From Polynucleobacter sp. 30F-ANTBAC (lineage in GTDB: Bacteria; Pseudomonadota; Gammaproteobacteria; Burkholderiales; Burkholderiaceae), in NCBI RefSeq assembly GCF_018882385.1, contig NZ_JACVON010000001.1:418942-482941 (forward strand): a stretch of 64,000 bases of DNA, read 5' to 3'. Positions 27,451-42,913 of the stretch are shown here, in pieces (the first letter of the stretch is position 1; each line of letters opens with the position of its first letter). Below the pieces are notes generated by a model, which searched no databases, had not been told where the DNA came from, and was given only the letters and a program-made list of their open reading frames with translations. The translations under genes and the position numbers were made by a program.

Positions 27451-28113
27451 TTATTTTGCCAAAGAGCTTAGGTCTTGATTTAGCCAGTGGAAGTTTTTGT
27501 AATAACCCTCTTCAAACTTTTTGATCTCATTGGCTTTTAGAAGTGTCAGGCCAATATCATCCAAGCCATTTAACAAGCAGTACTTCCTAAATGCTTCTAC
27601 TTCAAAATGCGTTGTAAAAGAGGCATCTTTGCTCGTAATGGTTTGATTCTCCAAGTTGACAGTCAAATGAAGAGCTTGATTGGCTTTTTCCAAGTCAAAT
27701 AATTGATCTACCTCAGACTCTGATAGAACGATTGGCAAGATGCCATTTTTAAAGCAGTTGTTATAAAAAATATCTGCATACGATGTTGCAATGATAATTT
27801 TGATGCCTGAATCCAATATGGCCCAAGGCGCATGTTCACGACTAGAGCCGCAACCAAAGTTGGCTCGTGTTAATAAAATGCTAGCGCCTTGGTACTGCGG
27901 AAGATTAAAGACGAAATCTTTTCGAAGGGGTCGGTTGCTGCAATCCATGCCTGGCTGACCTTCATCCTCATAACGCCAGTTATCAAACATGTATGGCCCA
28001 AAACCCGTGCGTTTAACTGATTTCAAAAACTGTTTTGGAATGATCGCATCTGTGTCCACATTGGAACGATCAAGAGGAATGACTAAGCCTTCATGCAAAT
28101 TGATCTTATCCAT
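27451..28113 (-). CDS. leuD: 3-isopropylmalate dehydratase small subunit (LeuD family)
   Basis: A 220-residue swivel-domain subunit that pairs with LeuC. Family motifs are [19 protein letters not shown], the [13 protein letters not shown] loop and [17 protein letters not shown]. The canonical reaction is isomerisation of 2- and 3-isopropylmalate in leucine synthesis; LeuCD relatives also hydrate maleate, citraconate and dimethylmaleate. I start at 28113, preceded by AGGAG and overlapping the leuC stop by eight bases; the frame is open upstream. It is last in the sigma-54-controlled operon, so a catabolic hydratase role must be considered. leuB is absent. Confidence 0.88.
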
Positions 28114-29518
28114 TGAAACTCCTAACATCGACAAAGTGGCCAGCTATTGCAGCGCAGGCTGCCATTGCTGGGGATACCAAATGAGTTCGACCACCTGGCC
28201 CTTGGCGACCCTCAAAATTGCGATTAGACGTAGAAGCGCAACGCTCACCTGGTGACAGTTGATCTTCATTCATGCCCAAACACATCGAGCAACCCGGTTC
28301 ACGCCATTCAAATCCAGCATCCTTGAATATTTGATCCAGACCCTCTTTCTCAGCTTGGGCTTTGACCAAACCTGAACCTGGAACAATTAATACCTGCTTC
28401 ACATGAGATGCTTTTTGACGACCTTTAACTAAATTGGCGGCTATTCTTAGATCCTCAATTCGAGAATTAGTACAGGAACCAATAAAAACCTTATCCACTT
28501 GGATATCGGTTATCTTGATATTAGGCGATAAACCCATGTATGTCAGCGCCTTTTCCACCGAGGCACGCTGATTAAGATCTGCGATGGCCTGTGGATCAGG
28601 AACTGTTCCATTCACGCCAACGACTAACTCAGGAGAAGTGCCCCAGGTGACTTGTGGTTCCACGGCGGACACATCAATTTCTATAGATTGATCAAAATGA
28701 GCATTTGGATCACTTTTCAAGGTTCTCCAGTACTTCAATGCGGCCTCAAAAGCATCGCCTTGAGGTGCCAATGGTTTGGACTTAACGTAATCTTCTGTCA
28801 CTTGATCAAATGCAACCATGCCCGATCTCGCCCCCGCCTCTATAGCCATATTGCAAAGAGTCATCCTTGCTTCCATAGATAGCTTCTCAACAGCCTCACC
28901 AGCAAATTCAATGGCGTAACCTGTGCCACCTGCCGTACCAATTTTTCCAATTAAGAACAACGCAAGATCTTTTGAACTGACATACTCTGATAATTTGCCA
29001 GTTAATCGAACCAGCATATTTTTAGCTTTGCGAGTAATCAAGCATTGAGTGGCCATCACATGCTCCACTTCAGAAGTGCCAATACCAAAAGCCAAGCTAG
29101 CCAGTGCACCATGTGTACTTGTATGAGAATCACCACAAACTAAGGTCATACCCGGCAATGTTAAGCCTTGCTCAGGGCCCACCACATGAACAATACCTTG
29201 ACGTTGATCTAACAAATCAAAGTAAGCAATTTTGTATTTTTTAGCATTGACATCGAGAGTATCAATCTGGATTTTAGAAATGGGATCTTTAACTCCTTGA
29301 TGCCTACCAGTTGTTGGTACATTGTGATCTACCACTGAGAAATTAGAGTTATTTCTCCAAAGTGGTCGACCCGCCAACTCTAAACCTTCAAAAGCTTGAG
29401 GGCTAGTTACTTCATGGGTCAGATGTCGATCGATATATAGAAGAACCGTTCCATCAGTCTCTTGACTAACAATATGACTATCAAATAGTTTGTCATACAA
29501 GGTTTTACTATTAGACAT
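28106..29518 (-). CDS. leuC: 3-isopropylmalate dehydratase large subunit (LeuC family)
   Basis: A 470-residue aconitase-family subunit with a [4Fe-4S] cluster. The ligands are Cys in [14 protein letters not shown] and both Cys of GCSMCLGMN. Also visible are [12 protein letters not shown] and [14 protein letters not shown]. The sequence is close to canonical LeuC throughout, so isopropylmalate isomerase is the default call. However it overlaps an isochorismatase-like hydrolase gene by eight bases within a catabolic operon, and other leucine genes are missing. A duplicated copy recruited for hydration of an unsaturated dicarboxylate is possible. Confidence 0.88.
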
Positions 29519-30098
29519 GTTTTAAGAGCTCCTCAGTGGACATCACATCCCCCGTTTTTAAGCCAAGATCTCTCAGGTTATAAGCATGGGCTTCCGCATC
29601 TCTGTCCCCACATGCATCATGAGGGATCACTACTGAAAAATTAGATTGCAAAGCATCAACAGCGGTCGCTCTAACGCAACCGCTCGTAGAAAAACCACAA
29701 ACTACCACTGAGTCCACTTCTAAATTAGTTAGCAACTGCCTCAATGGTGAATCAAAAAATGCGCTAGGAACTACTTTTCTAAAAATATAATCAGACTCAC
29801 CAACAGTTAGGTGAGGATCAATATCAGCCCATTGGCCGTCAACCGTTAATAAATTTAAGATTGGTAGTTTTTTTCTAAAAACACTAGCTTCAGCTGAATG
29901 CTCATAAGCATTAACAGTAAAAAATATCGGGTAGTTCTTACTTCTAAACGATTGAATAATTTTTTCAATGTTCAAAACTGCAGGTAAACCGTTGGTCCCC
30001 AATGGAGAGTCAGGGCTTGTAAACCCAGTTGTAGCATCGATCACCAAAAGTGCTGGGCGATGTCCTAATCCAAGTAAGTTTTGTTCAAGTGTAGCCAT
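29511..30098 (-). CDS. isochorismatase-like cysteine hydrolase
   Basis: A 195-residue hydrolase of the family that includes isochorismatase, nicotinamidase, N-carbamoylsarcosine amidohydrolase and maleamate amidase. The catalytic triad is Asp21 (VIDATTGF), Lys108 ([10 protein letters not shown]) and Cys141 ([11 protein letters not shown]). A Cys nucleophile points to C-N bond hydrolysis, such as an amide or carbamoyl group, as isochorismatase itself lacks that Cys. Next to HyuAB this fits removal of ammonia from a ring-opened half-amide or carbamoyl acid, but the substrate is not known. The ATG at 30096-30098 lacks a clear ribosome site and lies six bases after a strong hairpin. Confidence 0.85.
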
Positions 30099-30103
30099 AT
30101 GTA

Positions 30104-30125: not shown

Positions 30126-30134
30126 ATCCCCTTT

Positions 30135-31394
30135 TTATTGAGCAACAATTTCTAAACGATTCAAGTCAACATCTTTTGCACGTAAATTTGTATTAGTACG
30201 TGCTGTTCCGTGGTTAACGAAGATAGTTGCATGATTGCGTTTAAAGTCAATGGTGTGACCCTGGCTAGAGATAATAGTCTGACTTCCATCAGCACCTTTT
30301 AGAGCTCTACTTGTGTTGTTAAACCACTTCCAGAAATCGCCACGTTTATCGTAAGCTTCACCATAATAAATACGTGGTGTTGATGCCTCTAGATAAATGA
30401 CTTTCTTGCTGTATGGATGCTCATCTGGAGCAATCGCTTCAATCACGTGAACTTCACGTGGCTGATAGTTTTCGACTGGGTTCCAGTGTGGTGCATTTTT
30501 CAAGTCAATCGTTGGATAACGTTGTGCTTGATCAGTTTTGGTGTCATCCCAAGCTACTTTGGCATCACTAACTGCCAAGATATGTTTCTTACCAACGTAG
30601 TTGAACTTCTTATACCAACTTGGGCGAGCATTCCAAATCTCAATATCATCATTGAGCTGATCAGTTCCACCAATTGGGTCCATCCAAGCGCCACCAGATA
30701 GACGGCGTGTGCGACGAGCACTCTTGATATAAACCCACTGGTCTTCTACCTGTGCGCTATCGTGACGAATTGTGAAGGTACCAATACCTTTAATGTCTTG
30801 CGGATAGTTTGCAAACAATAAAGTACGGGTAAATGTTTTACCATCACCATCGACTGGAACTGCATCACCAGTTGTACGGTTTTTGTGGAAGTAACGATAC
30901 AAAGACCAACGCTGAGTTCTCTCTAAACCTTGCTTACCATCGATTAGAAGGAATTCAAACTTTGGAAAGTCCATCACTTGGCCCACAGGTGAAGCATAGT
31001 AGAAATTCCACATGTGCTTAGCAGCCTTGTTAGGATCATTGTCAGCAATAGCCGGGAATGGAATACCAGCTTTGTAACCTGAAACCTCATTTTTTGCAGC
31101 ATCGTACTTCACATCTGCCGCATACTTTTTAGTGGCTTCAATGGTTTTTGCATCAATCGGCAATGGTGTTGACTTTTGCAAAGTCAACTTTAGATTGTGA
31201 TTCTTAATCTGCCATTCCATTTTTTCAGGAATCATTCCGCCAATATTTTTACCTTCAAAAGTATCAGCCTTTACTTTATCGATGTTTGATTTATCGATAA
31301 CTGTACCCGCCGCAAGTTCTGCAGAGAATGCTCCAGGTGCAAAAGCAACTAAGCCAGTGCACACAAGCGATAGTGATAATTTATTTAATCTCAT
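30135..31394 (-). CDS. DUF1329 envelope protein
   Basis: A 419-residue secreted protein recognised as the DUF1329 family. The signal peptide is MRLNKLSLSLVCTGLVAFAP with probable cleavage after FSA. The mature part has a periplasmic beta-rich look, with family segments such as RRTRRLSGGAWMDPIGGTDQ and a C-terminal IYYGEAYDKRGDFWKWF. DUF1329 proteins are nearly always encoded with DUF1302 outer-membrane proteins, as here (17 bases apart). Function unknown; the company of an RND transporter suggests a role in moving a hydrophobic compound across the periplasm. Confidence 0.85.
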   Translation of the reverse strand: MRLNKLSLSLVCTGLVAFAPGAFSAELAAGTVIDKSNIDKVKADTFEGKNIGGMIPEKMEWQIKNHNLKLTLQKSTPLPIDAKTIEATKKYAADVKYDAAKNEVSGYKAGIPFPAIADNDPNKAAKHMWNFYYASPVGQVMDFPKFEFLLIDGKQGLERTQRWSLYRYFHKNRTTGDAVPVDGDGKTFTRTLLFANYPQDIKGIGTFTIRHDSAQVEDQWVYIKSARRTRRLSGGAWMDPIGGTDQLNDDIEIWNARPSWYKKFNYVGKKHILAVSDAKVAWDDTKTDQAQRYPTIDLKNAPHWNPVENYQPREVHVIEAIAPDEHPYSKKVIYLEASTPRIYYGEAYDKRGDFWKWFNNTSRALKGADGSQTIISSQGHTIDFKRNHATIFVNHGTARTNTNLRAKDVDLNRLEIVAQ

Positions 31395-31411
31395 TGATAT
31401 CTCCTAGATTC

Positions 31412-33163
31412 TTAGAAATTGCGTGTTAAGCGAAGAACGAACTGGTCGTTGCCATGGAAATAACCCATGAGTGGAGCTCCTGGATCAGCTACGTTACCGC
31501 CTTGGTTATCGAATGCTTGAGGTCTTGATTTTGAGCTAAAGAAGATATCAGCTTCTGCTTTCAAACGCCAAAAATCACCCAAAACAAACTCAACGCTCGG
31601 GATGATGAATCCACCACCATTGGTCATATCACCACCAACAGCTAAGGCCGGATTGATACGATCATTGCTGTAGTTCATACCCAAGATACCAGTTACCCAT
31701 GTGGTATTTTGCTTAAGTGCACCTGTAAAACCAATCAAACCAACCAAATCATCAGATTTGTTGTAATTTAAGATATGGGTGTTGAACACTTGAACACTAC
31801 CAAATGATGGACGTGATGTGCCAATAACCTTAGTCAAGTCAACACTCTTATCCATACGGAACATACTCGTAACCGTATTTTTCTTCATATAGCCATCTAA
31901 ACCAGGGATATTAAATACTGGGTTTTGAGAACCATTTTTCATTGATCCAAAGTTATAAGCTACACCAGTAGTAAGAACTTGCTCTGTACTAAATACAGCA
32001 TCAAATGTTGGCGAGTAACCGTTTAGAGTAAAGCCGTAAGCAGTAATTTTAGGAAAAACAACATCGCCTAAACTTCCTGATGTAGCCTCAGCTGTTGAGC
32101 CAGTACTTCCAATAATACTGTTACCAGCAGGTACAACTACAGGGTTACCAAAACCATTTAGAACTGCCAAGCTATAGTTTAAGTTTCCTTCTAAACCTGT
32201 CCAACGTAAACCACCAGTTGTATCTTTTTTATCACCTAAATGATGGCGATAATTGGTTCCTAAATAAGCTTTAGTCGATGGGTCCGCTGTAAAACTATTG
32301 GCATTATTGACGTTATAAAAGTCAACGCCTCTATAAGGATTATTGGCCCAACGTCCACCAGTAATATCATATGAATTACCGATGTCTTCACCTCTATCTA
32401 ATCCAGGCTTAATGATCGCTTGCAAGCTACCATTCTGCTCAGGGAAGTTAATTCGGAAGTTTGCCATCCAGTTAGTTTTACGTAACTCCTCGTTTTCAAC
32501 TTCTAAGAATGATCTCCAGCGGTAATCAAAGCCGTTAACGATATCCATCGCTCTAAAGAAGTCAGACTCACCCCAGACCACTTGTTGCTTACCAATACGC
32601 GCTTGAACATTTTCAGATATCGGGAAATCAACATACAAATCTCTTATTTGAGTATCGTTGTACTGATCCATTAGATCAGACGAAGTTGATTTGCCAGTAG
32701 GTAAAGCATTTAGTCCTAATACTGAATTACCTGCTCTCTTTTGATTTAGTCGTTTTAGGTAACTAGTTTCAACTTCTTGATCAGAGCGAACTGACGCTTT
32801 AATAGTTGTTTGATTTCTTTTAGCTTCAAAATCAAGAAAAACAGTTCCTCGAGCCATCGACATTGCGCCAGTTTCATCTTGACCAGTAGATGGCATTTTG
32901 TCATTTGTAAGCAAATTATTGCCCACGTTACCAGAACCTGCATTTTCTAGATTCCAAGATCCCATGGCACGAACATATCCACCAATCTTAGTTGTATCAC
33001 CCGAGAGCAATTCACTTGCTGCGTCTGTCTTGCTGTTACTTTGTTGCGCCCAAATAGATGGACTAAATGTCAAAGTCAAAGCCACAGCAACAACAAGTGG
33101 TTTTATTGACAAATTAGTAGATCTAGCTTCTTGGGCACTGCCTTTAAATATTGCTTTCTTCAT
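31412..33163 (-). CDS. DUF1302 outer-membrane beta-barrel protein
   Basis: A 583-residue protein of the DUF1302 family, predicted outer-membrane barrel. It has a signal peptide ending SPSIWA-QQ and closes with a terminal Phe (LRLTRNF), the usual barrel insertion signal. Family features include RIGKQQVVWGESDFFRAMD. The start at 33163 is chosen because GGAGG lies seven bases upstream; other in-frame starts up to 33205 exist. It probably forms a channel or binding surface for an organic compound. It is 17 bases before DUF1329 and 70 bases after the RND gene, with a hairpin in that gap. Confidence 0.85.
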   Translation of the reverse strand: MKKAIFKGSAQEARSTNLSIKPLVVAVALTLTFSPSIWAQQSNSKTDAASELLSGDTTKIGGYVRAMGSWNLENAGSGNVGNNLLTNDKMPSTGQDETGAMSMARGTVFLDFEAKRNQTTIKASVRSDQEVETSYLKRLNQKRAGNSVLGLNALPTGKSTSSDLMDQYNDTQIRDLYVDFPISENVQARIGKQQVVWGESDFFRAMDIVNGFDYRWRSFLEVENEELRKTNWMANFRINFPEQNGSLQAIIKPGLDRGEDIGNSYDITGGRWANNPYRGVDFYNVNNANSFTADPSTKAYLGTNYRHHLGDKKDTTGGLRWTGLEGNLNYSLAVLNGFGNPVVVPAGNSIIGSTGSTAEATSGSLGDVVFPKITAYGFTLNGYSPTFDAVFSTEQVLTTGVAYNFGSMKNGSQNPVFNIPGLDGYMKKNTVTSMFRMDKSVDLTKVIGTSRPSFGSVQVFNTHILNYNKSDDLVGLIGFTGALKQNTTWVTGILGMNYSNDRINPALAVGGDMTNGGGFIIPSVEFVLGDFWRLKAEADIFFSSKSRPQAFDNQGGNVADPGAPLMGYFHGNDQFVLRLTRNF

Positions 33164-33203
33164 TTTCATGCCTCCGTTAAAAGTGATCACTACTTTTTCC
33201 CAC

Positions 33204-33225
33204 ACTAATTCATTGGTGAATTAGT
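33204..33225 (-). other. intercistronic hairpin before the DUF1302 gene
   Basis: ACTAATTCA / TGAATTAGT, a perfect nine-base stem with a four-base loop, in the 70-base gap between the RND stop and the DUF1302 start. No T-run follows on the reverse strand, so it is probably not a terminator. Confidence 0.65.
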
Positions 33226-33233
33226 CTAGAACC

Positions 33234-35555
33234 TTACTTGCCCACAATAAATCGTGGGCGTGCTACATTCACAAGCGCTGGCATAATCACCAACGAACTA
33301 ATTGCTGATACGGTTAACCAAAGAGCCATTAAAAGACCCATCTCAGCCTGGAATCGAATGCTTGACATATACCAAGCGAAAACACCTACCACTAAAGTCG
33401 CAGCGGTTATCAAAACACCTCTGCCAGCTGTCAACATGGCGACACGGATAGACTCCTCAACCGACACGCCCTTTGCAATCTCTTCTTTGATACGGTCAAC
33501 CACATAGATGGCGTAATCCACACCCAATCCAATACCCAAAGCCGCTATAGGTAATGTATTGATGTTCATGCCAATACCTAAAAGGGTCATGAATGCAAAA
33601 GTTAAGGTATTAGAAATCAATACAGGAACCATAAAGAATGTTCCAGCACTCAAAGTTCTGTAAACCAATGCGCAAGAGAGAATTAGCACAACCAAGGCAG
33701 CAGCAATACTTTCAATTTGAGATGAAAGAATGATGTCATTGATAGCCGCCAACATACCAATCAAGCTACCTGCCAAATGAAGCTGAACAGGACTGTCTTT
33801 ATTTTGTTTTTTAAATTCTTCTAAACGGGCAATTGCCGTTCTGATCGTAGAGCCTTGGTGATCTTTGAAAAAGAAAGTGACAGACGCATTTTTATATTGA
33901 GAATCAACAAATCGATCAATATCACCTGGATCTGTGCCGGAAGTGTAAAGATACATGATCTCGCCATTCTCACCAGCATCAGCACCAAACTCTTCGTAAC
34001 GCGGATTACCCTCTCGTAAGGTTTTCTTCATGACGGGAATGATGTCCGCCATAGAAATAGAGCCACCCACTTCCGGCTGATCTTCCATATAACGCTGTAA
34101 GCGAGCCATATATGAAATAGCTTCAGGAGACTTAAGAATATCAACCTGATCACCCGACACCGCAACAAATAATCGATCAGCACCTAAATAGGTATTGTTG
34201 ATTTTTTGTGCATCTTGGTTATAAACCGAGTCCTGCCACAAGATAGGAGACCCAGGATTGGTATCACCTACTGATAAATTAGTAGCATAGATACCCGTTA
34301 ACACAAACACACTGGCACTGACCCAAATGATTCTGACAGCAATTTTTTTATCAATCACTTTGTCAGATATCCAGTTCAATAATCTGGTAATCGCATTATT
34401 CTGTTTAACAAGGCTAGCTGACGGAGCTTTTGGTTTTGTCCATGAAAGCAATAATGGGGTCATGACAACTGCACCAACAGCAATCGTACAAACCCAGATA
34501 GTCGCAATCAAAGCAATTTTTTGAATCATTGGGATAGGCGTTACTACCACAATGAAAATACAAGCAGCATCCGTTAAGATGCCCAACATCCCTGGCTTGA
34601 ATAACAACTCAAACGATGTTCTTGCCGCATCAAGTGCAGACTTTTTAGATTCTTGAACTTCATCTTCAAACTGCATCACAATTTGCACAGCATGAGAAAC
34701 AGATCGAGCAGAAATTAAAAATGCCACAACAATGATCAGAGGATCTAAGTTAAATCCAAATAATTTAGCAAAGCCAAGTGACCATAAAGCACTGATCAGA
34801 CCAGCTGACATTGGCAACAAGGTGCCACGTAAAGTTCTTGTAAAAATAAACAAGACAGCAGTTAGCAAACCAATGGTCAAACCTAAAATCAAAATGGTTT
34901 CAGAGAGGTAATACCGCACCCAACCATAAAGAATCGGCTCACCAACAAGATAAGTTTTAACGCCAGGAGACTCGATACCTTTAGCAATTTTACTAATCTC
35001 ATCAAAAATGAGCGCATAGTCCATATCGGCCTCAATAAAGTCTGCTGTGATCAAAGCTGACTTTAGATCTTGCCCTACATAAACTCCGTAAACCAATGGA
35101 TTACGAACCACAGATTCTTTTAATTCTGCAATTGCTTCAGGGGTTTGTGGAACTTCAGGCCACATCAAAGGTTTTAATTCAATTCCTTCTGTTGATGATT
35201 TAACCTCCTTAAGCTTTTTGGCAGCTAAAGAAATCACCTGGAACTGATCAACACCTTTGACTTTTTGAAGCTCAGTCGTTGCAGTTTTAATTTTGGTTAG
35301 GACTTCTTTTGTAAAAATATCCCCAGACTCAACCTCGACCATGAGACTAACCACATTGGAACTACCAAATGTGTTTTTATATTTTTGATGGGTCTCAATA
35401 AAAGGATGATTACTTGGTAATAAATCATCGAAAACAGTTTTAACATCAATGGTGGAGCCAATAGCACCAAGTATGGCAGTCAGAGAAACAATGGCAATGG
35501 CCACTAACTTTCTACGAGTAACGACCCAATCAATCACTTTGTCTGCGGAAATCAT
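33234..35555 (-). CDS. RND/MMPL-family transporter
   Basis: A 773-residue inner-membrane transporter of the MMPL branch of the RND superfamily. It has helix 1, a periplasmic domain, five helices, a second periplasmic domain and five more helices. The second half keeps the GIGLGVDYAIYVVDRIKEE motif with its Asp; the equivalent place in the first half is LISARSVSHAVQIV, lacking Asp. There is no HlyD-type adaptor or TolC in the cluster. YCF48-like and DUF1302/DUF1329 proteins take the neighbouring positions, a recurrent association. It overlaps the YCF48 gene by four bases. Direction of transport is unknown. Confidence 0.87.
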   Translation of the reverse strand: MISADKVIDWVVTRRKLVAIAIVSLTAILGAIGSTIDVKTVFDDLLPSNHPFIETHQKYKNTFGSSNVVSLMVEVESGDIFTKEVLTKIKTATTELQKVKGVDQFQVISLAAKKLKEVKSSTEGIELKPLMWPEVPQTPEAIAELKESVVRNPLVYGVYVGQDLKSALITADFIEADMDYALIFDEISKIAKGIESPGVKTYLVGEPILYGWVRYYLSETILILGLTIGLLTAVLFIFTRTLRGTLLPMSAGLISALWSLGFAKLFGFNLDPLIIVVAFLISARSVSHAVQIVMQFEDEVQESKKSALDAARTSFELLFKPGMLGILTDAACIFIVVVTPIPMIQKIALIATIWVCTIAVGAVVMTPLLLSWTKPKAPSASLVKQNNAITRLLNWISDKVIDKKIAVRIIWVSASVFVLTGIYATNLSVGDTNPGSPILWQDSVYNQDAQKINNTYLGADRLFVAVSGDQVDILKSPEAISYMARLQRYMEDQPEVGGSISMADIIPVMKKTLREGNPRYEEFGADAGENGEIMYLYTSGTDPGDIDRFVDSQYKNASVTFFFKDHQGSTIRTAIARLEEFKKQNKDSPVQLHLAGSLIGMLAAINDIILSSQIESIAAALVVLILSCALVYRTLSAGTFFMVPVLISNTLTFAFMTLLGIGMNINTLPIAALGIGLGVDYAIYVVDRIKEEIAKGVSVEESIRVAMLTAGRGVLITAATLVVGVFAWYMSSIRFQAEMGLLMALWLTVSAISSLVIMPALVNVARPRFIVGK

Positions 35556-36580
35556 TGAGTGCTTTCTTTTCTGTTTGAATTAAGAAATTGAATTTTTTCC
35601 TCTTTTAAAACAAGAGGTCTTCCACCAACAACTACCAATTGGTCATCGGCTTTAATAAAGTCTGTTTTCCAACTTAAATCGCCGGATTTTTCAGATAAAA
35701 GTTTCCAGATCTTGGCAGAATCTTTTTTAGCGATAAAGCCTTGATCACCGGCAATGTAAAAATCATCATTAAATTGAGTGACCGCAAAAAGATGGGACTT
35801 GGTTATCGACTCAGAGTTTTGCCAAGATTGACCACCATCAGAAGTCTTGAGTACTTTGCCTTCGAGACCGACTGCATATCCTGAGCCGCTTGCTTGAATA
35901 GCCAAGGCCATGAGACTGCTTGTAATGGGTGTTTTGACTGGCTTCCATGTGCTACCTTGATCTGAAGAGTAAAGTGCACGGCCAAACTCACCCACAATTG
36001 AGATGCCTTTATCTGAAAATGCGATGTCATTCCAGGCAACATCTGATTTGATGTTCATTCTTTTCCAAGATTGACCGCCATCACTGCTGCGCAAAATGGT
36101 TCCAAATTCCCCAAGAATCCAGAGTCCGTAATTTGCATGGTGCTTAACTTGAATAAGCTTAATAGCACCTAGTCCCAAGTCTTCTGGCAATTTAATAGAC
36201 TTCCAGGTCTTACCTAGATCATTGGTCACAGCAACAGCAGCAGCATTACCTACAGCGATAAGACTGGATTCAGCAAAAGCCTCAATCGATTGCCAATTAG
36301 ATGACAACGGTAACTCTTGAATTTGCCAGTTAGATAGATTTTTTTCACTAAAAATAACTTTGCCATCACGACCAGCCATCCAAACAGAACCTTGAGCGTT
36401 GGCAGTACCGGTATAGAAGGCATCTCTTGGATGAATGGGTAAAGGATTTAAGTGAGGCACTGACACCACTGGCTTAACAAATAGTGCTGCTAATACCAAA
36501 AGAACAACGACCGCAATTGGGAAAATCGAACTCAGTATGGACAATACACGTGGCGTAAATAATTTTTGGAACATTAGCAT
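35552..36580 (-). CDS. YCF48-like beta-propeller envelope protein
   Basis: A 342-residue protein with an N-terminal hydrophobic segment (IFPIAVVVLLVLAALFV) and repeated BNR/YCF48 units, for example ILRSSDGGQSWKRM, LYSSDQGSTWKPV and LKTSDGGQSWQ. It should be a seven-bladed propeller exposed to the periplasm. YCF48 helps photosystem II assembly in cyanobacteria, but homologues in heterotrophs accompany RND transporters and their role is unknown. Its start overlaps the lyase gene by seven bases and its stop overlaps the RND start by four (ATGA), so it is coupled to both the enzymes and the transporter. Confidence 0.85.
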   Translation of the reverse strand: MLMFQKLFTPRVLSILSSIFPIAVVVLLVLAALFVKPVVSVPHLNPLPIHPRDAFYTGTANAQGSVWMAGRDGKVIFSEKNLSNWQIQELPLSSNWQSIEAFAESSLIAVGNAAAVAVTNDLGKTWKSIKLPEDLGLGAIKLIQVKHHANYGLWILGEFGTILRSSDGGQSWKRMNIKSDVAWNDIAFSDKGISIVGEFGRALYSSDQGSTWKPVKTPITSSLMALAIQASGSGYAVGLEGKVLKTSDGGQSWQNSESITKSHLFAVTQFNDDFYIAGDQGFIAKKDSAKIWKLLSEKSGDLSWKTDFIKADDQLVVVGGRPLVLKEEKIQFLNSNRKESTQ

Positions 36581-37500
36581 GACCCTACCTTTCCTTGCGC
36601 CCCATAATTACGCTGTAGCCAAGGGTAGCTTCTACCACCCAAAGACTTATTCGTGATCTTAGATGCATATTCAATAGCCGTAATCAATTTGGATAAATCA
36701 ATATTGGTTTCATAACCACATTGTTGAGCTAAAAGCACTAAGTCTTCTGTTGCTAAATTACCAGAAGCATTCGGTGTAAATGGACAGCCACCCATCCCAC
36801 CGATCGAGCTATCAAATTTACGAATTCCTGCCTCAATCGACGCATAACAATTGGCTATAGCCATACCGCGAGTGTCATGAAAGTGCCCAGAAAGAATTTC
36901 AGAGCCCAAGTGCGCAACCAAGAGATCCATGGTAGTTTTGACCAAAGATGGAGATGCGGCACCAATAGTGTCAGCAATAACAATCTCATCGGCACCAGAC
37001 TGTTGCATCATTTTTGTCAAATCAAGCAACCATGGCAAAGGCACATCTCCTTCAAATGGACAGACAAAAGCTACACCAATATAGGCCTTCGCTCTTAAGT
37101 TTGATTTTTTGGCAGTGGTAACAATTTCAGAACAAACATCAATCGTTTTTTGAAGCGACATATTGATATTTTTCTGATTCATCGTCTCTGTGGCTGATAA
37201 AACCACAGCCACCTCTTGAACACCACTTTCAATAGCTAACTCTAATCCTTTAACGTTCGGTATCAAAGCAGACATACCCACAGGCAGTGGCTGCCCAATT
37301 TGGGCAACCAAGTCTTTGGTTGTAGCCATTTGAGGCACAGCTTTGGGAGATACAAAACTTCCCACCTCAATATGATTTATTCCTGCAGCCATTAGTTGTT
37401 GAATTAACTGATACTTCTCATCAACACCAACCAGAACAGTTTGATTCTGCAAACCGTCCCGAGGGCCAACCTCGTTAACAATTATTTTATTCATTAGCAT
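36574..37500 (-). CDS. HMG-CoA-lyase-like enzyme
   Basis: A 308-residue TIM-barrel lyase of the HMGL family, cleaving a 3-hydroxyacyl-CoA by retro-Claisen reaction. Catalytic residues are Arg14-Asp15 (GPRDGLQ), metal ligands His206 and His208 (GHFHDTRG), Cys239 in GGMGGCPFTP and Asn248. The canonical substrate is 3-hydroxy-3-methylglutaryl-CoA, but homologues cleave other branched hydroxyacyl-CoAs. The flanking CoA-transferase and hydantoinase genes, without leucine-degradation genes such as ivd or mcc, argue for another substrate here. Met3 at 37494 is an alternative start. Confidence 0.88.
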   Translation of the reverse strand: MLMNKIIVNEVGPRDGLQNQTVLVGVDEKYQLIQQLMAAGINHIEVGSFVSPKAVPQMATTKDLVAQIGQPLPVGMSALIPNVKGLELAIESGVQEVAVVLSATETMNQKNINMSLQKTIDVCSEIVTTAKKSNLRAKAYIGVAFVCPFEGDVPLPWLLDLTKMMQQSGADEIVIADTIGAASPSLVKTTMDLLVAHLGSEILSGHFHDTRGMAIANCYASIEAGIRKFDSSIGGMGGCPFTPNASGNLATEDLVLLAQQCGYETNIDLSKLITAIEYASKITNKSLGGRSYPWLQRNYGAQGKVGSC

Positions 37501-37502
37501 CT

Positions 37503-39377
37503 TTATTTAACTTGAGCTCGCACTTTAAAAGTTGGAGATTTAGGCGGCATAAGATGAGTCTCTTCAAAGCAACGAGCCTTGATTTCTTCGATCGTTCCAC
37601 CTCTATTAAATAACTCGATTGGCTTGCGCTCTTTTTCAATCTTCTGACGTAGTTCTTGTGTTTTTGGTACATCAACAACACCATCAGCCGTCAAAACAAC
37701 GCCGTAGTTTTTAGCCCCATCAATAGTTACTAGACCTCTATTAAAGTCATCGGCCACCTTTTGTGGATCTCTCTTAAGAGGATCTCCCCAACCGCCGCCA
37801 CCCCAAGTGTTGTAATAAAGTTGATCGCCTTTTTCTACAAAAATACGATCGCACTTAGAAGGCAACCACTCAACTGAACCATCGGTTCTGACTAATTTCT
37901 TGGAGCTTCTACCACCTGGCAAACCACCATTAACACCCCATGGATACGTTAACCAACGATCATCATGGATAGAGATCTGACCTGGCTCTAAAAATTCATA
38001 AAGAACAGAAACGCCATTACCGCCACGGTTAAGACCAGCGCCACCTGAGTCAGCGATAGACTCATATCTCAAAATTCTGAGTGGGAAATAGCTCTCTAAG
38101 TATTCATTTGGCACATTGGTAAATGAAGGCCATAATGAATGTCCATCAGGACCATCACCGGCTGGTCGACCAGGAATTCCTCCGAAACCAATTTGGAATA
38201 ATTGATACCATTCATCACGGCTATCGTAGCCTGAATACATCAAGTGCGGACTATCTGAGAATCCAGCAGCGTTAAGAGCATCTGGCGCTCCCATACCTAG
38301 AACGCCACCCATAATGTCAAAAATTCGACCTAATAAGTGGGTTCTGCATGAGAGGGCCGCCGGTCTCTTAGGCTTTAGAATGCTGCCATCTGGAATTTTG
38401 ACATCTACCAACTCATAGAAGCCATCATTAAACAAGATTTGAGGATCGAATAGATTAATAAAGAATGCGCCCAAGAACATCTTGAACATTTCTTCATTTA
38501 GGTAAAAGTTAATCGAGCTCATTGACTGAGGATCTGTACCCTCGAAGTCAAAGTAAGCAATATCACCTTCACGCCATAGACTGCATGCAATCTTGTAAGG
38601 ACCCATGCCAATGCCATCATCATCGATGTAATCTTCGAAATAAGCCTTTTTCTCAGGAATAACCATCTTAATAATGGCACTCATTGCTCTCTTATTACGA
38701 TCAAGCATTTCATTGGTAGCAGCCATGTAAGAGCCCACACCAAAGCGTTGAATAATTTCACGAACGCGACGCTCAGCCAATCTTAGAGCAGCAATAATGG
38801 CATTAAAGTCACTTCTATTCCAATCTGGAACTCGAGAATTTCTAACTAATACATTGAGCAATTCTGAGTTAAGCTCGCCACCACGAATAATTTTTACTGG
38901 AGGGATTTGCAAACCTTCTTCAAAAATTTGCATCGCATCAGTTGGTAAACTACCAGGAACTTTACCGCCGTTATCCGTCATATGACCAAACATGGCTGCC
39001 CAACTGACCAATTTGCCACCATCAAAAATAGGCATCAATGTTAGCCAGTCATTTAAGTGACTAACTGCACCATTAGTTGAATAAGGGTCATTTGTCAAAA
39101 AGACATCACCCTCTTCAACTGTACCGTCATAACCCTCAAGAAAGCCATGGATGAATGAACCAAATTGTCCAACCACCATTTTTCCATCATGATTTGCAAT
39201 CATAGGAAAAGCATCATGCTGTTCACGAATACCTGGCGACATCGCCGTTCTGAAAAGAACTGCATCCATCTCTGAACGAGCATTTCTTAATGCATTTTCA
39301 ATAATATCCAAGTTAATTGAATCAACTTCAGTTGCTTCAATTTTTACTTTATTCGTTTCTATAATTCTCGCTGACAT
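37503..39377 (-). CDS. hydantoinase B / acetone carboxylase alpha family subunit
   Basis: A 624-residue subunit of the ATP-dependent hydantoinase/oxoprolinase/ketone-carboxylase family. Family motifs include DAVLFRTAMSPGIREQHDA, VFLTNDPYSTNGAVSHLNDW and GGRSSKKLVRTDG near the C-terminus. It works with the HyuA-like subunit encoded four bases upstream. Relatives open N-methylhydantoin, 5-oxoproline or caprolactam, or carboxylate acetone and acetophenone; the sequence alone does not say which. I start at 39377 because AAAGG precedes it and it follows the hyuA stop; the frame stays open to 39410. Confidence 0.88.
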   Translation of the reverse strand: MSARIIETNKVKIEATEVDSINLDIIENALRNARSEMDAVLFRTAMSPGIREQHDAFPMIANHDGKMVVGQFGSFIHGFLEGYDGTVEEGDVFLTNDPYSTNGAVSHLNDWLTLMPIFDGGKLVSWAAMFGHMTDNGGKVPGSLPTDAMQIFEEGLQIPPVKIIRGGELNSELLNVLVRNSRVPDWNRSDFNAIIAALRLAERRVREIIQRFGVGSYMAATNEMLDRNKRAMSAIIKMVIPEKKAYFEDYIDDDGIGMGPYKIACSLWREGDIAYFDFEGTDPQSMSSINFYLNEEMFKMFLGAFFINLFDPQILFNDGFYELVDVKIPDGSILKPKRPAALSCRTHLLGRIFDIMGGVLGMGAPDALNAAGFSDSPHLMYSGYDSRDEWYQLFQIGFGGIPGRPAGDGPDGHSLWPSFTNVPNEYLESYFPLRILRYESIADSGGAGLNRGGNGVSVLYEFLEPGQISIHDDRWLTYPWGVNGGLPGGRSSKKLVRTDGSVEWLPSKCDRIFVEKGDQLYYNTWGGGGWGDPLKRDPQKVADDFNRGLVTIDGAKNYGVVLTADGVVDVPKTQELRQKIEKERKPIELFNRGGTIEEIKARCFEETHLMPPKSPTFKVRAQVK

Positions 39378-39381
39378 ATGC

Positions 39382-41472
39382 TTAACCTTTCTTCGCACTA
39401 ATTTTTTCATTAGGCCAAATCAGAATATTGGCAACCTCATCAACAACACCGGTGTGATCAGGAAGAACTAAAGTGGTTGTATCCATTTGAGTAATGATGG
39501 CTGGACCAACAATATGATTACCGGCAACCAAACGATCGCGGCGATAAATATTTGCTTTTTGAAGCGCACCATCCACATAAACTTCAGAGCTAGCTATCAA
39601 AGCGTCTGCTGCTGGATTCTTAGAACCAATTGCGTTTCTAGTTGCTTTAACTTTTGTTTCAGGACCCAAAACAATTGCTCGAAGGTTGACGATCTCTTTA
39701 ACCACATCCAAAGAGAATGTGTAAAGTTGAGTATGCTTATCATCAAATATCTTAGCAATACTACTTAAACCACCATTTTTGAATTCATCAGCAGAGACAG
39801 CAATTGGTAATTGCATACCCTGGCCGCGATATCGCAAATCAATCTGATAGATCAACTGTTGATTCTCAATTGAAATACCTTCTTCGATTAACGACTTTCT
39901 AGCATTCGCCGCCAAAGTTTCAAGTATGCCGCCCACCTCAGAATCGGTAGTCTCATCATAGCGACGAATAAATGTCTGAGAGAACTCATCTCTTGAGCGC
40001 GTTGTTGCATCACCATAAGCACATAGAACACCAGGTCCTGGTGGAATAATGACTGGCCATGAGCCCATTAACTTACCAAGAGCGTTACCGTGCAATGGGC
40101 CCGCACCACCGAAAGCGATCAGTGCAAAATCTCGTGGGTCGTAGCCTTGTTCGATGGACACCAAACGTAATGCACCAAACATGTTTTCATTAACAATTTT
40201 GATAATGCCTTCAGCAGTTTCATGTACTGACTTACCTAAAGGATCGGCGACTGTTTTAACAGCTTTTTCTGCTAGAGATTTATCAATCTTCATGTCACCA
40301 CCAAGCGCTGAATTGCTTGGCAAATAACCCAATGTCACGTTTGCATCCGTCACAGTAGGTTTCTCTCCACCTTTGCAATAAGCAGCTGGGCCAGGACTAG
40401 CGCCGGCACTTTGCGGACCCACACGTAATGCTTTTGTTAATTCTGGTACATAGGCAATCGATCCGCCACCAGCACCAACTGTTCTTACGTCAATAGAGGG
40501 GGCTCTCACAGTGATATCCCCTACTCGTGTTTCACGTCTAGTTTGTGCCACGCCATCTTGAATCAAGGCCACATCCGTTGAGGTACCCCCCATATCGAAT
40601 GTCAATAAATTCATGTAGCCAGATTGCTTTGCAATCCATTGCGCACCAGAAACACCGCCAGCAGGTCCGGACATTAGCAAGTTAACTGGGTTATCTCGTG
40701 CGCCTTGAATGGTTGATAAACCACCATCGGATCTTAAAATATGTAGATGAAGATTCTTCATCGACTTATTAAGTTCAGTCTGAAGATTTTTCATGTACTT
40801 TGAAACAACTGGACGAACATATGAGTTCACAACCGTCGTTTCAGTTCTCTCGTACTCATACATCTCTGGAATAACTTCGCTAGAGATTGAGACTGGAATA
40901 CCAGGGAGGACTTGTTCAGCAATTTTTCTAGCTTGATCTTCGTGAATACCACTTGAGTAAGCATTCATAAAGCAGATAGTTAACGCCTCAATTTTGCAAT
41001 CAACTAATTTGAGAAGATCTTTTTTAAGTTTTTCCTCATTGAGCGGCTTTAATACATTACCGCGTGAATCAATTCTTTCATCAGCTTCAATGGTCCATTC
41101 AAGCGGGGCTAACAATGGTTTTTTGTTATAAATAACCCAACCACCCAAACCACCAGGAACAAATGAACGAGCAATTTGTAGAACCTGACGGTAGCCTTCG
41201 GTTGTTACCAAACCAACTCGCGCGCCCTTACCCTCTAAAACAGCATTGGTAGCAACAGTGGTACCGTGCATGACGCGATTAATATCTTCGGTCTTTAAGC
41301 CATTTTGTTCACAGATTTTTTTAATGCCATTTAAAACACCTTCAGAAGAATCATGAGGTGTTGATGGGACTTTAGCTGCATAGGTTTGACCAGTTGACTC
41401 ATCAATCAAGATAAGGTCCGTGAAGGTCCCTCCCACATCAACACCTAAGCGATAACTACTTGTCTGACTCAT
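39382..41472 (-). CDS. hydantoinase A / acetone carboxylase beta family subunit
   Basis: A 696-residue ATP-binding partner of the HyuB-like protein. The sugar-kinase-like nucleotide fold shows GVDVGGTFTDLI at the N-terminus, HGTTVATNAVLEGKGA, LMSGPAGGVSGA and FDMGGTSTDVA. The protein phosphorylates a carbonyl of a lactam, imide or ketone in known relatives. The intact length and the close partner gene suggest an active enzyme. It lies 27 bases after the CoA-transferase gene. Confidence 0.9.
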   Translation of the reverse strand: MSQTSSYRLGVDVGGTFTDLILIDESTGQTYAAKVPSTPHDSSEGVLNGIKKICEQNGLKTEDINRVMHGTTVATNAVLEGKGARVGLVTTEGYRQVLQIARSFVPGGLGGWVIYNKKPLLAPLEWTIEADERIDSRGNVLKPLNEEKLKKDLLKLVDCKIEALTICFMNAYSSGIHEDQARKIAEQVLPGIPVSISSEVIPEMYEYERTETTVVNSYVRPVVSKYMKNLQTELNKSMKNLHLHILRSDGGLSTIQGARDNPVNLLMSGPAGGVSGAQWIAKQSGYMNLLTFDMGGTSTDVALIQDGVAQTRRETRVGDITVRAPSIDVRTVGAGGGSIAYVPELTKALRVGPQSAGASPGPAAYCKGGEKPTVTDANVTLGYLPSNSALGGDMKIDKSLAEKAVKTVADPLGKSVHETAEGIIKIVNENMFGALRLVSIEQGYDPRDFALIAFGGAGPLHGNALGKLMGSWPVIIPPGPGVLCAYGDATTRSRDEFSQTFIRRYDETTDSEVGGILETLAANARKSLIEEGISIENQQLIYQIDLRYRGQGMQLPIAVSADEFKNGGLSSIAKIFDDKHTQLYTFSLDVVKEIVNLRAIVLGPETKVKATRNAIGSKNPAADALIASSEVYVDGALQKANIYRRDRLVAGNHIVGPAIITQMDTTTLVLPDHTGVVDEVANILIWPNEKISAKKG

Positions 41473-41499: not shown

Positions 41500-42714
41500 T
41501 TATTGAATAATTTTTTTAACTTTTAAACTTGTCAATTGCTCATCACTCATGCCACACATCTCTCTAAGCACCTCATCGGTGTGCACACCCAATTTAGGCG
41601 GCGCATCAGGAGTCTCCTCAACTGATGAAGAGAACTTCATTGGTATACCTGGCATTTTTACGGTTTGGCCGTTTTCCAGCTTCACGTCAATCACCATATT
41701 TCTTGCTAACACTTGAGGATCACTGAGCGCCTGATCAAAACGATTCACAGGCCCGCAAGGAATTTTTGCTTCTTGGAATAACTTTAGCCAATAAGCAGTT
41801 GGCTGAAGCTTGAGATTTTCCGCAATGGCGGCATCAATTTGTGCTTTAGCAGCCAATCGAACGGGTTGCTGGTGATACTTCTCATCAAGAAAATCTTCTA
41901 ATGGCAAGACTTTGATAAATCTGCCCCAAAATGCATCACCAATACAAGCGATAATTAAATGGCCATCACTTGTTGGATAGGAGTTGTATGGGACATGCAC
42001 AAAGTGACTGTTACCAATAGGTTCCGGAACACTTCCAGAAAGGAAATACATGGTTGCCATGTAGTTCAACAATGAAATCTGAGCATCTAACATGGAAACA
42101 TCCACATGTTGACCTTTGCCAGTGCTGGCGCGCTGAGTTAGTGCTGCTAAAACACCCATTGCACCAAATACACCACCACCTAGATCACCAATTGGAATAC
42201 CTGAACGCATCGGTGAATTTTTGTCCAAACCAGTGATTGACATACCACCACCCATGGCTTGAACGACTTGGTCAAACGCAGGACGAAGTGGATCAGGACC
42301 CGTTGAGCCAAAACCACTGATAGAACAAGTAATAATTTTAGGATTAATAGATGATAATTTTTCGTAATCGATACCCAAACGTTGAGTAACACCCACTGAA
42401 AAATTATCAACAACAACGTCAGCAACCCTGACTAACTCATAGAAAACCTCAAGACCCTCTGGACTTTTGAGATCAATACAAACACTCTTCTTGCCGCGGT
42501 TGAGTGTTAAGAAGTACGCCCCCATACCATCAGCAGAATTATTAGGATCTTTTGCTAAGAGAGCTCTTGTCGCTTCGCCATGATCCAAAGGCTCAACCTT
42601 GATGGTTGTCATCCCTAGATCACTTAGCATCATCGTCGCATAAGGACCTGATAGCATATGAGTCAGATCTAAAAGAGTTAATCCGCTTAAGACTTGGTTA
42701 GTTTTATTCATCAT
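41500..42714 (-). CDS. family III CoA-transferase (CaiB/BaiF)
   Basis: A 404-residue CoA-transferase; family III enzymes move CoA between acids, typically from succinyl-CoA. The start GLTLLDLTHMLSGPYATMM is typical, the catalytic Asp is Asp177 in GIPIGDLGGG, and GQHVDVSMLDA follows. Family members act on formate, malate, citramalate, carnitine and others. First gene of the operon. The double ATG (42714 and 42711) is only a few bases from the start point expected for the sigma-54 promoter, so the mRNA may be almost leaderless. Confidence 0.9.
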   Translation of the reverse strand: MMNKTNQVLSGLTLLDLTHMLSGPYATMMLSDLGMTTIKVEPLDHGEATRALLAKDPNNSADGMGAYFLTLNRGKKSVCIDLKSPEGLEVFYELVRVADVVVDNFSVGVTQRLGIDYEKLSSINPKIITCSISGFGSTGPDPLRPAFDQVVQAMGGGMSITGLDKNSPMRSGIPIGDLGGGVFGAMGVLAALTQRASTGKGQHVDVSMLDAQISLLNYMATMYFLSGSVPEPIGNSHFVHVPYNSYPTSDGHLIIACIGDAFWGRFIKVLPLEDFLDEKYHQQPVRLAAKAQIDAAIAENLKLQPTAYWLKLFQEAKIPCGPVNRFDQALSDPQVLARNMVIDVKLENGQTVKMPGIPMKFSSSVEETPDAPPKLGVHTDEVLREMCGMSDEQLTSLKVKKIIQ

Positions 42715-42725
42715 ATGTCCTATAC

Positions 42726-42742
42726 AGCAAAAAGTGTGCCAA
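42726..42742 (-). promoter_or_regulatory. sigma-54 promoter of the catabolic operon
   Basis: TTGGCAC, five bases, TTGCT on the reverse strand, with exact -24/-12 spacing (consensus TGGCAC-N5-TTGC). By convention transcription would begin near 42715. A small inverted repeat, AATAGATT / AATCTATT (42741-42759), abuts the -24 side. Confidence 0.9.
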
Positions 42743-42772: not shown

Positions 42773-42862
42773 TATATATAAATTAATAAAAATAAGCTCA
42801 TAAAATTAAACGTTATATGTTAGGGCTTTCCACTAACTTTGCTGTTTATTCAAGACAAAATT

Positions 42863-42910: not shown

Positions 42911-42913
42911 AAT

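Follow-up and report, generated by a model that had tools for sequence, protein, structure and literature searches.

A four-gene set of the AmeABCD transporter type inside an operon with putative imide-type enzymes in Polynucleobacter sp. 30F-ANTBAC

Described machines of the same kind

The passage of hydrophobic nutrients through the periplasm of Gram-negative bacteria is a long-standing problem. The closest described system is AmeABCD of Castellaniella defragrans, associated with monoterpenes and composed of a DUF1302 protein, a DUF1329/LolA-like protein, a COG4447/YCF48-like protein and an HAE3 RND protein, for which a deletion mutant was made; AmeB and AmeC are proposed there as adaptors (PMC6394551). 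Operons combining COG4447, COG1033, PF07044 and DUF1302 genes are described in betaproteobacterial aromatic regulons, with a suggested role in coping with toxic aromatics or solvent stress (PMC6449761). The account of the anaerobic benzene degrader ORM2a presents a highly expressed nanopod cluster with porin-like, DUF1329, YCF48 and MMPL proteins and leaves the direction open (PMC13101534). In Pseudomonas putida, PP_0765, PP_0766, PP_2018 and PP_2019 (a DUF1302, a DUF1329, a periplasmic and a multidrug-efflux-type protein) are reported to be needed on Tween 20, and co-folding suggested contacts among the four, mostly weak (PMC10866462). More distant are AupA and AupB of Marinobacter, an interacting outer-membrane barrel and inner-membrane protein for alkane uptake (PMC5989066), and TOL_3187 of Thalassolituus, which joins MMPL and LolA-like domains in one protein next to a predicted porin (PMC6304351).

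By its protein families, the four-gene set analyzed here belongs to the AmeABCD type of putative four-part transporters, a kind of machine already in print. The earlier note had called its mechanism undescribed; this has to be withdrawn, because work on AmeABCD, the aromatic regulons, the benzene degrader and P. putida describes the same kind (PMC6394551, PMC6449761, PMC13101534, PMC10866462), and the machine is thus not new to print. What is new is its context, a putative imide-type operon with a PrpR-type activator and a sigma-54-type promoter. Like AmeABCD, the set unites DUF1302, DUF1329/LolA-like, YCF48 and RND genes in one cassette with catabolic neighbours, whereas AmeABCD, as described, belongs to a monoterpene island and is read as efflux (PMC6394551). 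The aromatic-regulon operons share the families and the co-regulation with catabolic genes but differ in substrate class and regulator (PMC6449761); a second copy of the machine in the genome analyzed here, in a phenol-hydroxylase/meta-cleavage cluster with an XylR_N regulator, is of this kind. The ORM2a cluster likewise groups DUF1329, YCF48 and MMPL proteins, with a porin-like protein, but its other members differ (PMC13101534), and the P. putida set, as presented, is spread over two loci and concerns another substrate, whereas ours occupies one locus (PMC10866462). AupA is FadL-like, unlike the DUF1302 barrel (PMC5989066), and TOL_3187 resembles the long RND-LolA proteins found beside DUF1302 in our survey (PMC6304351); in the available portions of both descriptions, and unlike here, there is no separate DUF1329 or YCF48 protein (PMC5989066, PMC6304351).

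The four genes, their operon and their recurrence

We analyzed a stretch of 64,000 nucleotides (the window). Positions 30135-36580, where the earlier note had located the four genes, indeed hold four minus-strand ORFs, all with families over the Pfam cut-offs (Table 1). Their order is YCF48-RND-DUF1302-DUF1329, with intergenic gaps of -4, 64 and 17 bases, as against A-B-C-D in the described AmeABCD cassette (PMC6394551). Near its N-terminus the YCF48 protein has a single predicted hydrophobic stretch (about residues 7-45), a probable membrane anchor. The DUF1302 protein has a signal-like N-terminus and a C-terminal Phe, and its low-confidence model (mean pLDDT 53; 18 strands; best matches MOMP, OprD and AlgE, Z about 20-21.6) supports only the assignment as an outer-membrane barrel; FadL was absent among the 50 matches listed for this model, which excludes nothing. 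The DUF1329 protein, whose model is weak (mean pLDDT 47), also matches LolA_like (56.6 bits versus a cut-off of 30) and is presumed periplasmic from its signal-like N-terminus alone.

Table 1. Features of the operon and its control region in window coordinates
Feature	Position	Strand	Evidence
LeuD-like small hydratase subunit, encoded last in the operon	27451..28134	-	
LeuC-like hydratase large subunit, second copy in the genome	28106..29518	-	
Isochorismatase-fold amidase, N-carbamoylsarcosine amidase kind	29511..30098	-	D21, K108, C141 present
DUF1329 (LolA_like) protein, AmeB counterpart	30135..31394	-	DUF1329 178.4 bits versus 23.1
DUF1302 outer-membrane barrel, AmeA counterpart	31412..33169	-	44.9 bits versus 23.2
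MMPL/HAE3-like RND protein, 773 aa, AmeD counterpart	33234..35555	-	MMPL 88.5 bits versus 20.5
YCF48/COG4447-type beta-propeller, AmeC counterpart	35552..36580	-	PSII_BNR 70.2 bits versus cut-off 27
HMG-CoA-lyase-like enzyme	36574..37500	-	over NCBIfam NF004283 cut-off
HyuB-type subunit	37503..39410	-	family search
HyuA-type subunit (N-methylhydantoinase/5-oxoprolinase/caprolactamase family)	39382..41472	-	
Family III CoA-transferase, encoded first in the operon	41500..42714	-	family search
Predicted sigma-54-type promoter, TGGCAC-N5-TTGC	42727..42741	-	12 bases upstream of first gene
25-nt inverted repeat of TGTTTCAAT units, candidate activator binding site	42860..42913	.	
PrpR-type sigma-54 activator (PrpR_N, PAS, AAA+, HTH), divergent	42914..44821	+	

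The RND protein carries S287-H288-xx-Q291 in TM4 and D680-Y681-xx-Y684 in TM10. The RND proteins of its lineage have this asymmetric site in common (TM4, S/G-H-x-x-Q; TM10, D-Y-x-x-Y), which may point to a way of transport that differs from that of exporters. The best model is TIGR00921 HAE3, although at 147.9 bits versus a cut-off of 351.9, and the protein fits HAE3/MmpL types better than HAE1 pumps. Identity as the hopanoid transporter HpnN was rejected (TIGR03480, 64.6 versus 751.85 bits; NF052374, 31.6 versus 1100), as was an MMPL-LolA fusion of the TOL_3187 kind, Pfam giving MMPL and ACR_tran matches alone.

The proteins would together span the envelope, and, in line with the earlier note, neither an HlyD-type adaptor (PF16576) nor a TolC-type factor (PF02321) gene was found in the window for these two families; an HAE1 tripartite pump encoded together with its adaptor and factor was rejected on this ground. 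All matches to the two families in the genome lie elsewhere, on contigs C3 and C4. The label 'adaptor-less' given to the set thus stands for HlyD-type genes of the cluster, but as wording it may mislead, because the YCF48 protein has its hydrophobic N-terminal segment and its counterpart and that of DUF1329 were proposed as adaptors in the AmeABCD account (PMC6394551).

The link to catabolic genes was borne out as well: the transporter genes lie centrally within an 11-gene operon that runs from 27451 to 42714 and contains the enzymes, with a regulator diverging at 42914-44821. Co-transcription of the 11 genes is inferred from sequence, and the operon is probably inducible. The promoter pattern TGGCAC-N5-TTGC is matched exactly at one place only in the window; with one mismatch allowed, there are 8 matches versus 5.4 expected in the window, that is, no excess. 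TGTTTCA/TGAAAC-type motifs also occur upstream of relatives. Neither RNA families nor tRNAs were found in the window.

The association of the four families had been said to recur, and it does. Our survey covered 40 of 61 places with related RND genes (the remainder being 4 fetched separately, the window's own and 16 outside the survey), a full set being defined as YCF48, DUF1302 and DUF1329 on the RND's strand within 7 kb. All four genes occur together in 31 of the 40 loci, including L209, where the ORF start made the RND look long. By comparison, only 1 of the 73 RND-less loci among the best 80 of 188 HyuB-relative loci has any of the three partners, and the association is thus not due to chance. 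In three of the nine loci lacking the full set (L185, L200 and L217) YCF48 was the sole partner so placed; DUF1302 and DUF1329 lie on the opposite strand in L200, and a DUF1329 fragment lies at the end of the stretch in L217. The RND stands by itself in L216. The remaining five (L196, L204, L211, L214 and L215) have a long RND frame of about 1,055 aa adjoining DUF1302, without YCF48; a C-terminal LolA_like domain was present on all 4 long proteins scanned with Pfam (L214, the fifth, was outside the scan). These long RND-LolA proteins beside DUF1302 suggest that the RND, the LolA-like part and the barrel form one path. L067, which duplicates L091, was omitted from the RND tree.

Within the genus, any such RND turned up in 4 of the 151 genomes, this one included, and those other than the window's own gene are at most 32% identical. 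It is this distribution, rather than base composition (0.411 in the operon, only a little below the 0.447 around it), that argues for acquisition of the operon.

Enzymes and candidate substrate

Taken together, the enzymes would suit the breakdown of a cyclic imide, for example an alkylmaleimide, and the machine would then handle this compound. In the most likely route, as predicted from the enzyme families, HyuAB would open the imide ring, the amidase would hydrolyse the half-amide, the LeuCD-like enzyme would hydrate the resulting alkylmaleate, the CoA-transferase would add CoA, and the HMG-CoA-lyase-like enzyme, whose best solved relative is HMG-CoA lyase, would cleave the product, giving an acyl-CoA together with a 2-oxo acid; alkylmaleamate, alkylmaleate, alkylmalate and alkylmalyl-CoA are the predicted intermediates. 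D21, K108 and C141 of the amidase are presumably its catalytic residues. Besides its best solved relative, N-carbamoylsarcosine amidase, the amidase matched 3uao, which is listed as a putative isochorismatase and which we take to be NicF. The operon LeuCD was rejected as the sole isopropylmalate isomerase, since the genome has a further LeuC elsewhere (G000:C3:45118), with LeuD and a leuB-type gene behind it; the operon pair may be a dedicated maleate-type hydratase. Among the matches listed in the literature searched, we found no description of a bacterial alkylmaleimide pathway with these enzymes; one listed paper, PMC9304392, concerns a fungal nicotinate pathway and mentions a cyclic imide and an imidase.

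It is quite possible, if short of an even chance, that the enzymes serve other substrates, such as hydantoins or lactams, or carboxylate ketones in the manner of acetone or acetophenone carboxylases. The closest solved relative of HyuA is N-methylhydantoinase, of which N-carbamoylsarcosine amidase, nearest to the operon's amidase, is the natural partner, and HyuA also matches caprolactamase and acetophenone carboxylase models, both below their cut-offs. In addition, LeuC is absent from the stretch in 66 of the best 80 of 188 HyuAB loci, so that the hydratase is no general part of the HyuAB neighbourhood. However, neither N-carbamoyl amino acids nor carboxylated ketones would account for the LeuCD-like, CoA-transferase and HMG-CoA-lyase-like steps, and LeuC is present in 6 of the 7 loci that combine the catabolic genes with the RND (7 of the best 80 of 188), the stretch of the seventh ending earlier.

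These seven loci belong to beta-, gamma- or unplaced proteobacteria, and the operon is found again, largely complete but with its genes rearranged, in both beta- and gammaproteobacteria, as in Vreelandella; Vreelandella utahensis is one carrier. Amidase genes were absent from the fetched stretches of L088 and L089, which counts against the proposed route. Nine stretches around distant HyuA relatives (about 37-41% identical) contained neither RND nor LeuC, with one weak amidase match and two CoA-transferase matches among them. In the LeuC tree, where several rows have long branches and L220 was omitted as the window's own copy, a single recruitment of all cluster LeuC genes (eight rows from RND-bearing clusters, two of them identical) was rejected (p-AU 0.0009), whereas grouping the window LeuC with L088, L089 and L091 was not rejected (p 0.459). 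LeuC thus appears from its sequences to have been recruited more than once. A PEP-mutase-type gene, of which there is none in the window operon, occurs in 15 of the best 80 of 188 HyuAB loci. Four of the 15 (L089, L108, L123 and L156) also have CoA-transferase and HMG-CoA-lyase-like matches; the gene is therefore no simple alternative to these two. For the PEP-mutase-family genes of L128 and L108 (19019-19879), methylisocitrate lyase is the best model, below its cut-off, but petal death protein and 2,3-dimethylmalate lyase are among the solved relatives of the L128 gene, which speaks for the imide chemistry.

The imide reading, taken further, would have the operon mineralise alkylmaleimides from chlorophyll, haem or bilin breakdown (for example, 2-ethyl-3-methylmaleimide or haematinic acid) through a proton-driven outer-to-inner importer of the AmeABCD type with a LolA-like carrier, which we regard as doubtful. 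If the imide reading is true, it would point to a bacterial route by which small pyrrole-ring fragments left over from chlorophyll and haem are recycled in water, and an imide, perhaps from chlorophyll remnants, would be a new use for an AmeABCD-type machine. Small alkylmaleimides may need no transporter for hydrophobes, which counts against the explanation of the machine preferred below.

Direction of transport

We consider it somewhat better supported than not that the machine is an AmeABCD-type transporter, that it carries a growth substrate which is hydrophobic or partitions into membranes, and that it is encoded in one operon with the enzymes degrading this substrate. We infer its steps, protein contacts, energy coupling and direction as follows. 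The substrate would cross the outer membrane through the DUF1302 barrel and pass to DUF1329, a soluble LolA-like carrier; at the inner membrane, the RND protein, driven by protons, would exchange it with DUF1329, and the membrane-anchored YCF48 propeller would stand in for an HlyD adaptor. The direction of such a machine could be decided here, because the operon is compact and probably inducible and its substrate can be guessed from the enzymes.

The earlier preference for uptake over efflux holds in a weakened form: uptake is slightly favoured, at little better than an even chance, and efflux is possible though not probable. AupAB, read as an importer, speaks for uptake, its mutants losing binding or uptake of micellar hexadecane (PMC5989066), whereas the interpretation of AmeABCD as an exporter speaks against it (PMC6394551). 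A sugar-type ABC importer is present in 25 of the best 80 of 188 HyuAB loci, none of which also has the RND (overlap 0 of 80, where about 2 would be expected; hypergeometric probability about 0.06, calculated by hand); this non-overlap, which follows phylogeny, is weak evidence for uptake.

The same machine might instead be an efflux or solvent-tolerance pump that keeps a toxic substrate or reactive intermediate out of the membranes during degradation, a tenable if somewhat improbable explanation. RND proteins are generally exporters, the window RND matches exporters, and maleimides alkylate thiols. Deletion of ameABCD is reported to have reduced growth at high limonene, a defect overcome by acetate, and to have slightly raised Nile Red accumulation under CCCP; yet efflux of Nile Red followed in real time hardly differed between cells that had the genes and cells that lacked them (PMC6394551). 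The link of the four families to coping with toxic aromatics also fits a pump (PMC6449761). However, the four-part machine is the only importer candidate of our operon, in a family of loci where ABC importers occur as counted above, and AupAB and the PP_0765/PP_0766 set are described as required for growth on alkanes or Tween 20 (PMC5989066, PMC10866462).

Export of an envelope lipid, or supply of outer-membrane vesicles, in the manner of HpnN, MmpL3 or nanopods, with the place in the operon reflecting envelope remodelling, is very unlikely: MmpL3, HpnN and MmpL5 are the best-scoring solved relatives of the RND protein, and DUF1302 and DUF1329 proteins are reported from Delftia nanopods (PMC3110197), but the HpnN and MmpL3 equivalog models fall far below cut-off, none of the operon genes matches a lipid-synthesis family, and the paralogue is located in a phenol pathway. 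The most improbable explanation is a conventional tripartite pump in which the RND protein borrows the TolC and HlyD proteins encoded on C3 and C4, given that its conserved partners in the surveyed loci are YCF48, DUF1302 and DUF1329 and that it is nearer to HAE3/MmpL types than to HAE1.

Layout and control region of the operon

The part worth testing is the operon around the transporter, which probably encodes a pathway for cyclic imides and the envelope machine that serves it; among the literature matches listed, we found no description of such a pathway. The earlier note had located its four transporter genes correctly, as judged from the open reading frames and Pfam matches above the cut-offs. 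They occupy the middle of a run of 11 same-strand genes with intergenic gaps of -29 to 64 bases, in the order CoA-transferase III, HyuA, HyuB, HMG-CoA-lyase-like, YCF48, RND, DUF1302, DUF1329, isochorismatase-fold amidase, LeuC-like and LeuD-like, which we infer to be one transcript. A PrpR-type sigma-54 activator gene is divergent from this run, a perfect sigma-54 element (TGGCAC-N5-TTGC) lies 12 bases ahead of the first operon gene, and a 25-nt inverted repeat made of TGTTTCAAT units is located ~120 bases upstream of the element. Across 5 related loci, counted without a chance control, the element was exact in 1, had one mismatch in 3 and at best two mismatches in 1, and TGTTTCA- or TGAAAC-type motifs were present upstream in all 5. 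Genes for isocitrate lyase, RraA and an MFS permease lie close to the operon on one strand (46404-49736); the permease could provide a second route for substrate or product.

Coordinates of the transporter genes in the window and of long RND frames beside DUF1302 in fetched stretches around relative loci (L numbers)
Feature	Stretch	Coordinates	Strand	Basis
YCF48	window	35552-36580	minus	Pfam, above cut-off
RND/MMPL	window	33234-35555	minus	Pfam, above cut-off
DUF1302	window	31412-33169 (alternative GTG start at 33205)	minus	Pfam, above cut-off
DUF1329	window	30135-31394	minus	Pfam, above cut-off
Long RND	L196	8981-12139		
Long RND	L204	7939-11124		
Long RND	L211	8493-11687		
Long RND	L215	7929-11105		
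Long RND	L214	2343-5507		

The four-part set and its relatives

The four-gene observation of the earlier note stands, but the transporter is of an already described kind rather than undescribed. In published work, the same four families make up AmeABCD of Castellaniella (PMC6394551) and recur in aromatic regulons (PMC6449761); a Pseudomonas putida set is required on Tween 20, with contacts predicted (PMC10866462), a cluster of this type is present in a benzene degrader (PMC13101534), and a Zoogloea phenol-hydroxylase cluster includes DUF1302 and DUF1329, two families whose literature also leads to nanopods (PMC3110197).

Around 40 of 61 related RND places we scanned stretches of ~20 kb, shorter where a contig ended, with profiles built from the window proteins and their relatives. 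In 31 loci, all three partners lay within 7 kb of the RND gene and shared its strand; by the same rule, 3 loci had YCF48 only and 1 had none. The other 5 pair an RND frame of ~1,055 aa with a DUF1302 gene and lack YCF48. As a control, any of the partners occurred in 1 of 73 HyuB-relative loci without RND. All 4 long RNDs scanned with Pfam (L196, L204, L211 and L215) carry a C-terminal LolA_like domain (183-192 bits); in published work, TOL_3187 likewise unites MMPL and LolA-like domains and is up 42-fold on C28 alkane (PMC6304351). Such joined proteins next to a DUF1302 gene support a putative direct path from RND through LolA-like/DUF1329 to the DUF1302 barrel.

By a quick tree method, the five long RNDs form one branch, and the imide-operon RNDs lie on another shared with copies from genomes G280 and G533 that have other neighbours. 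The related four-gene set of G280 (L069 14562-19036) has as neighbours a distant HyuAB pair (24-28%), whose frames resemble acetone carboxylase by their length, and frames similar to thiolase and acyl-CoA ligase (by eye). The G533 set (L070 4592-16965) follows molybdopterin-oxidoreductase and iron-sulfur protein frames resembling, by eye, hydrocarbon or steroid dehydrogenases.

The YCF48 protein has a single, strongly hydrophobic N-terminal segment, which makes an inner-membrane anchor probable, and it may act in place of an adaptor. The DUF1302 and DUF1329 proteins have hydrophobic, signal-like N-termini. The DUF1302 model (mean pLDDT 53, 18 strands) resembles MOMP, OprD/Occ and AlgE (Z ~20-21.6), which predicts a barrel and nothing finer. 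In RND, D680-Y681-xx-Y684 of TM10 is present in 52/52 aligned rows, near-duplicates included; the matching place in TM4 (residues 287-291) lacks an acidic residue and has S-H-x-x-Q, fused proteins having G-H-x-x-Q there, with H288 present in 51 and Q291 in all 52 rows. In the alignments to solved relatives, D-Y occurs in both halves of MmpL3, whereas HpnN shows D in its first half only. In this superfamily, these positions carry protons.

Enzymes of the proposed imide route

The nearest solved relative of the amidase is N-carbamoylsarcosine amidase; 3ot4 and 3uao, presumably NicF maleamate amidase, appear further down the list, labelled putative isochorismatase, and D21/K108/C141 are present in the aligned motifs. 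HyuA is nearest to N-methylhydantoinase and 5-oxoprolinase, and the lyase to HMG-CoA lyase. The hydratase is LeuCD-like, and a separate leuC-leuD-leuB locus lies elsewhere in the genome. The route would lead from imide through half-amide, alkylmaleate, alkylmalate and CoA ester to 2-oxo acid plus acyl-CoA, which is chemically coherent because the natural intermediate of LeuCD is itself an alkylmaleate.

Gene content in two relatives supports the imide reading. In L128 (unplaced proteobacterium), HyuAB is followed by amidase, a PEP-mutase-family gene (12580-13443) and LeuCD; L108 (alphaproteobacterium) has amidase, LeuC and a PEP-mutase-family gene (19019-19879) in divided order, with CoA-transferase and HMG-CoA-lyase-like matches. 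Both carry sugar-type ABC importer genes. Among solved structures, the L128 lyase best matches petal death protein, an entry named as a phosphorylmutase, and 2,3-dimethylmalate lyase, but its nearest NCBIfam model, methylisocitrate lyase, scored below the cut-off (268 versus 354 bits). Petal death protein cleaves 2-ethyl-3-methylmalate, and 2-ethyl-3-methylmaleimide derives from chlorophyll. A reference title assigns to petal death protein the cleavage of alpha-keto and alpha-hydroxy acids, and published reports place the maleimide in cyanobacterial and water-plant extracts.

Against the imide reading, LeuC was not found at 66 of the best 80 of 188 HyuAB loci, and 15 of these 80 carry a PEP-mutase-type gene, 4 of them with CoA-transferase and HMG-CoA-lyase-like matches as well. 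Furthermore, L088 and L089 combine PEP-mutase-type and HMG-CoA-lyase-like genes, and the stretches fetched around them gave no amidase match.

In the same survey (best 80 of 188), RND was present in 7 HyuB loci. LeuC accompanied it in 6, the seventh (L097) ending within DUF1302, and was found in 8 of the 73 loci without RND. Two pairs, L088/L089 and L157/L160, are near-duplicates, leaving about five independent cases besides the window. The Vreelandella order is CoAT-HMGL-YCF48-RND-DUF1302-DUF1329-HyuA-HyuB-amidase-LeuC-LeuD-PrpR; L096 has the catabolic genes minus LeuCD, and the transporter is absent. LeuC genes from clusters with RND do not form a single clade (p-AU 0.0009), and this label needs at least 3 changes on the tree; if a LeuCD-type hydratase was recruited repeatedly, that would itself be evidence for the hydratase step, with the long branches of these genes as a caveat. 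In L165 (Marinobacter gelidimuriae; 8799-10001), YCF48 is followed directly by a shortened HyuA match, with no match to RND, DUF1302 or DUF1329 and no run of N; the gap is a deletion or an assembly join.

Transport direction and origin

We lean slightly towards uptake. The four-part set is the sole transporter in the operon, and a precedent exists in AupA/AupB, described as an interacting outer-/inner-membrane pair that cells need to grow on micellar hexadecane (PMC5989066). ABC importers of the Peripla_BP_4/BPD_transp_2 type, which Pfam confirmed for L128 and L133, occur in 25 of the best 80 of 188 HyuAB loci, and RND in none of these 25; this exclusion has little statistical weight (about 0.06 by hand) and is confounded by phylogeny. 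Efflux is a tentative alternative: RND proteins habitually export, and maleimides are toxic. Deletion of AmeABCD caused poor growth on limonene and slightly more Nile Red accumulation under CCCP, while real-time efflux was almost identical with and without the system; the authors inferred export (PMC6394551).

RND of this kind occurs in 4 of 151 genomes of the genus, the window's own (1.96 Mb) included, and genus RNDs other than the window's gene are at most 32% identical. Across 399 genomes of the order, we found the closest whole gene set in genome G476 (HyuB 78%, HyuA 72%, RND 59% and amidase 34% identity), where the amidase sits at the opposite end of the LeuCD pair. Thus, with RND rare and distant in the genus and the closest full set in G476, the operon can be read as acquired; base composition lends this little weight.

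The window's own genome has a second four-gene set (contig C3, 1036592-1043512; L072 6593-13513), with an RND 31-32% identical to the window's. It is surrounded by a phenol-hydroxylase, catechol-dioxygenase and meta-cleavage cluster and an XylR_N sigma-54 regulator, and its YCF48 has a lipoprotein-like start (LTAC, by eye).
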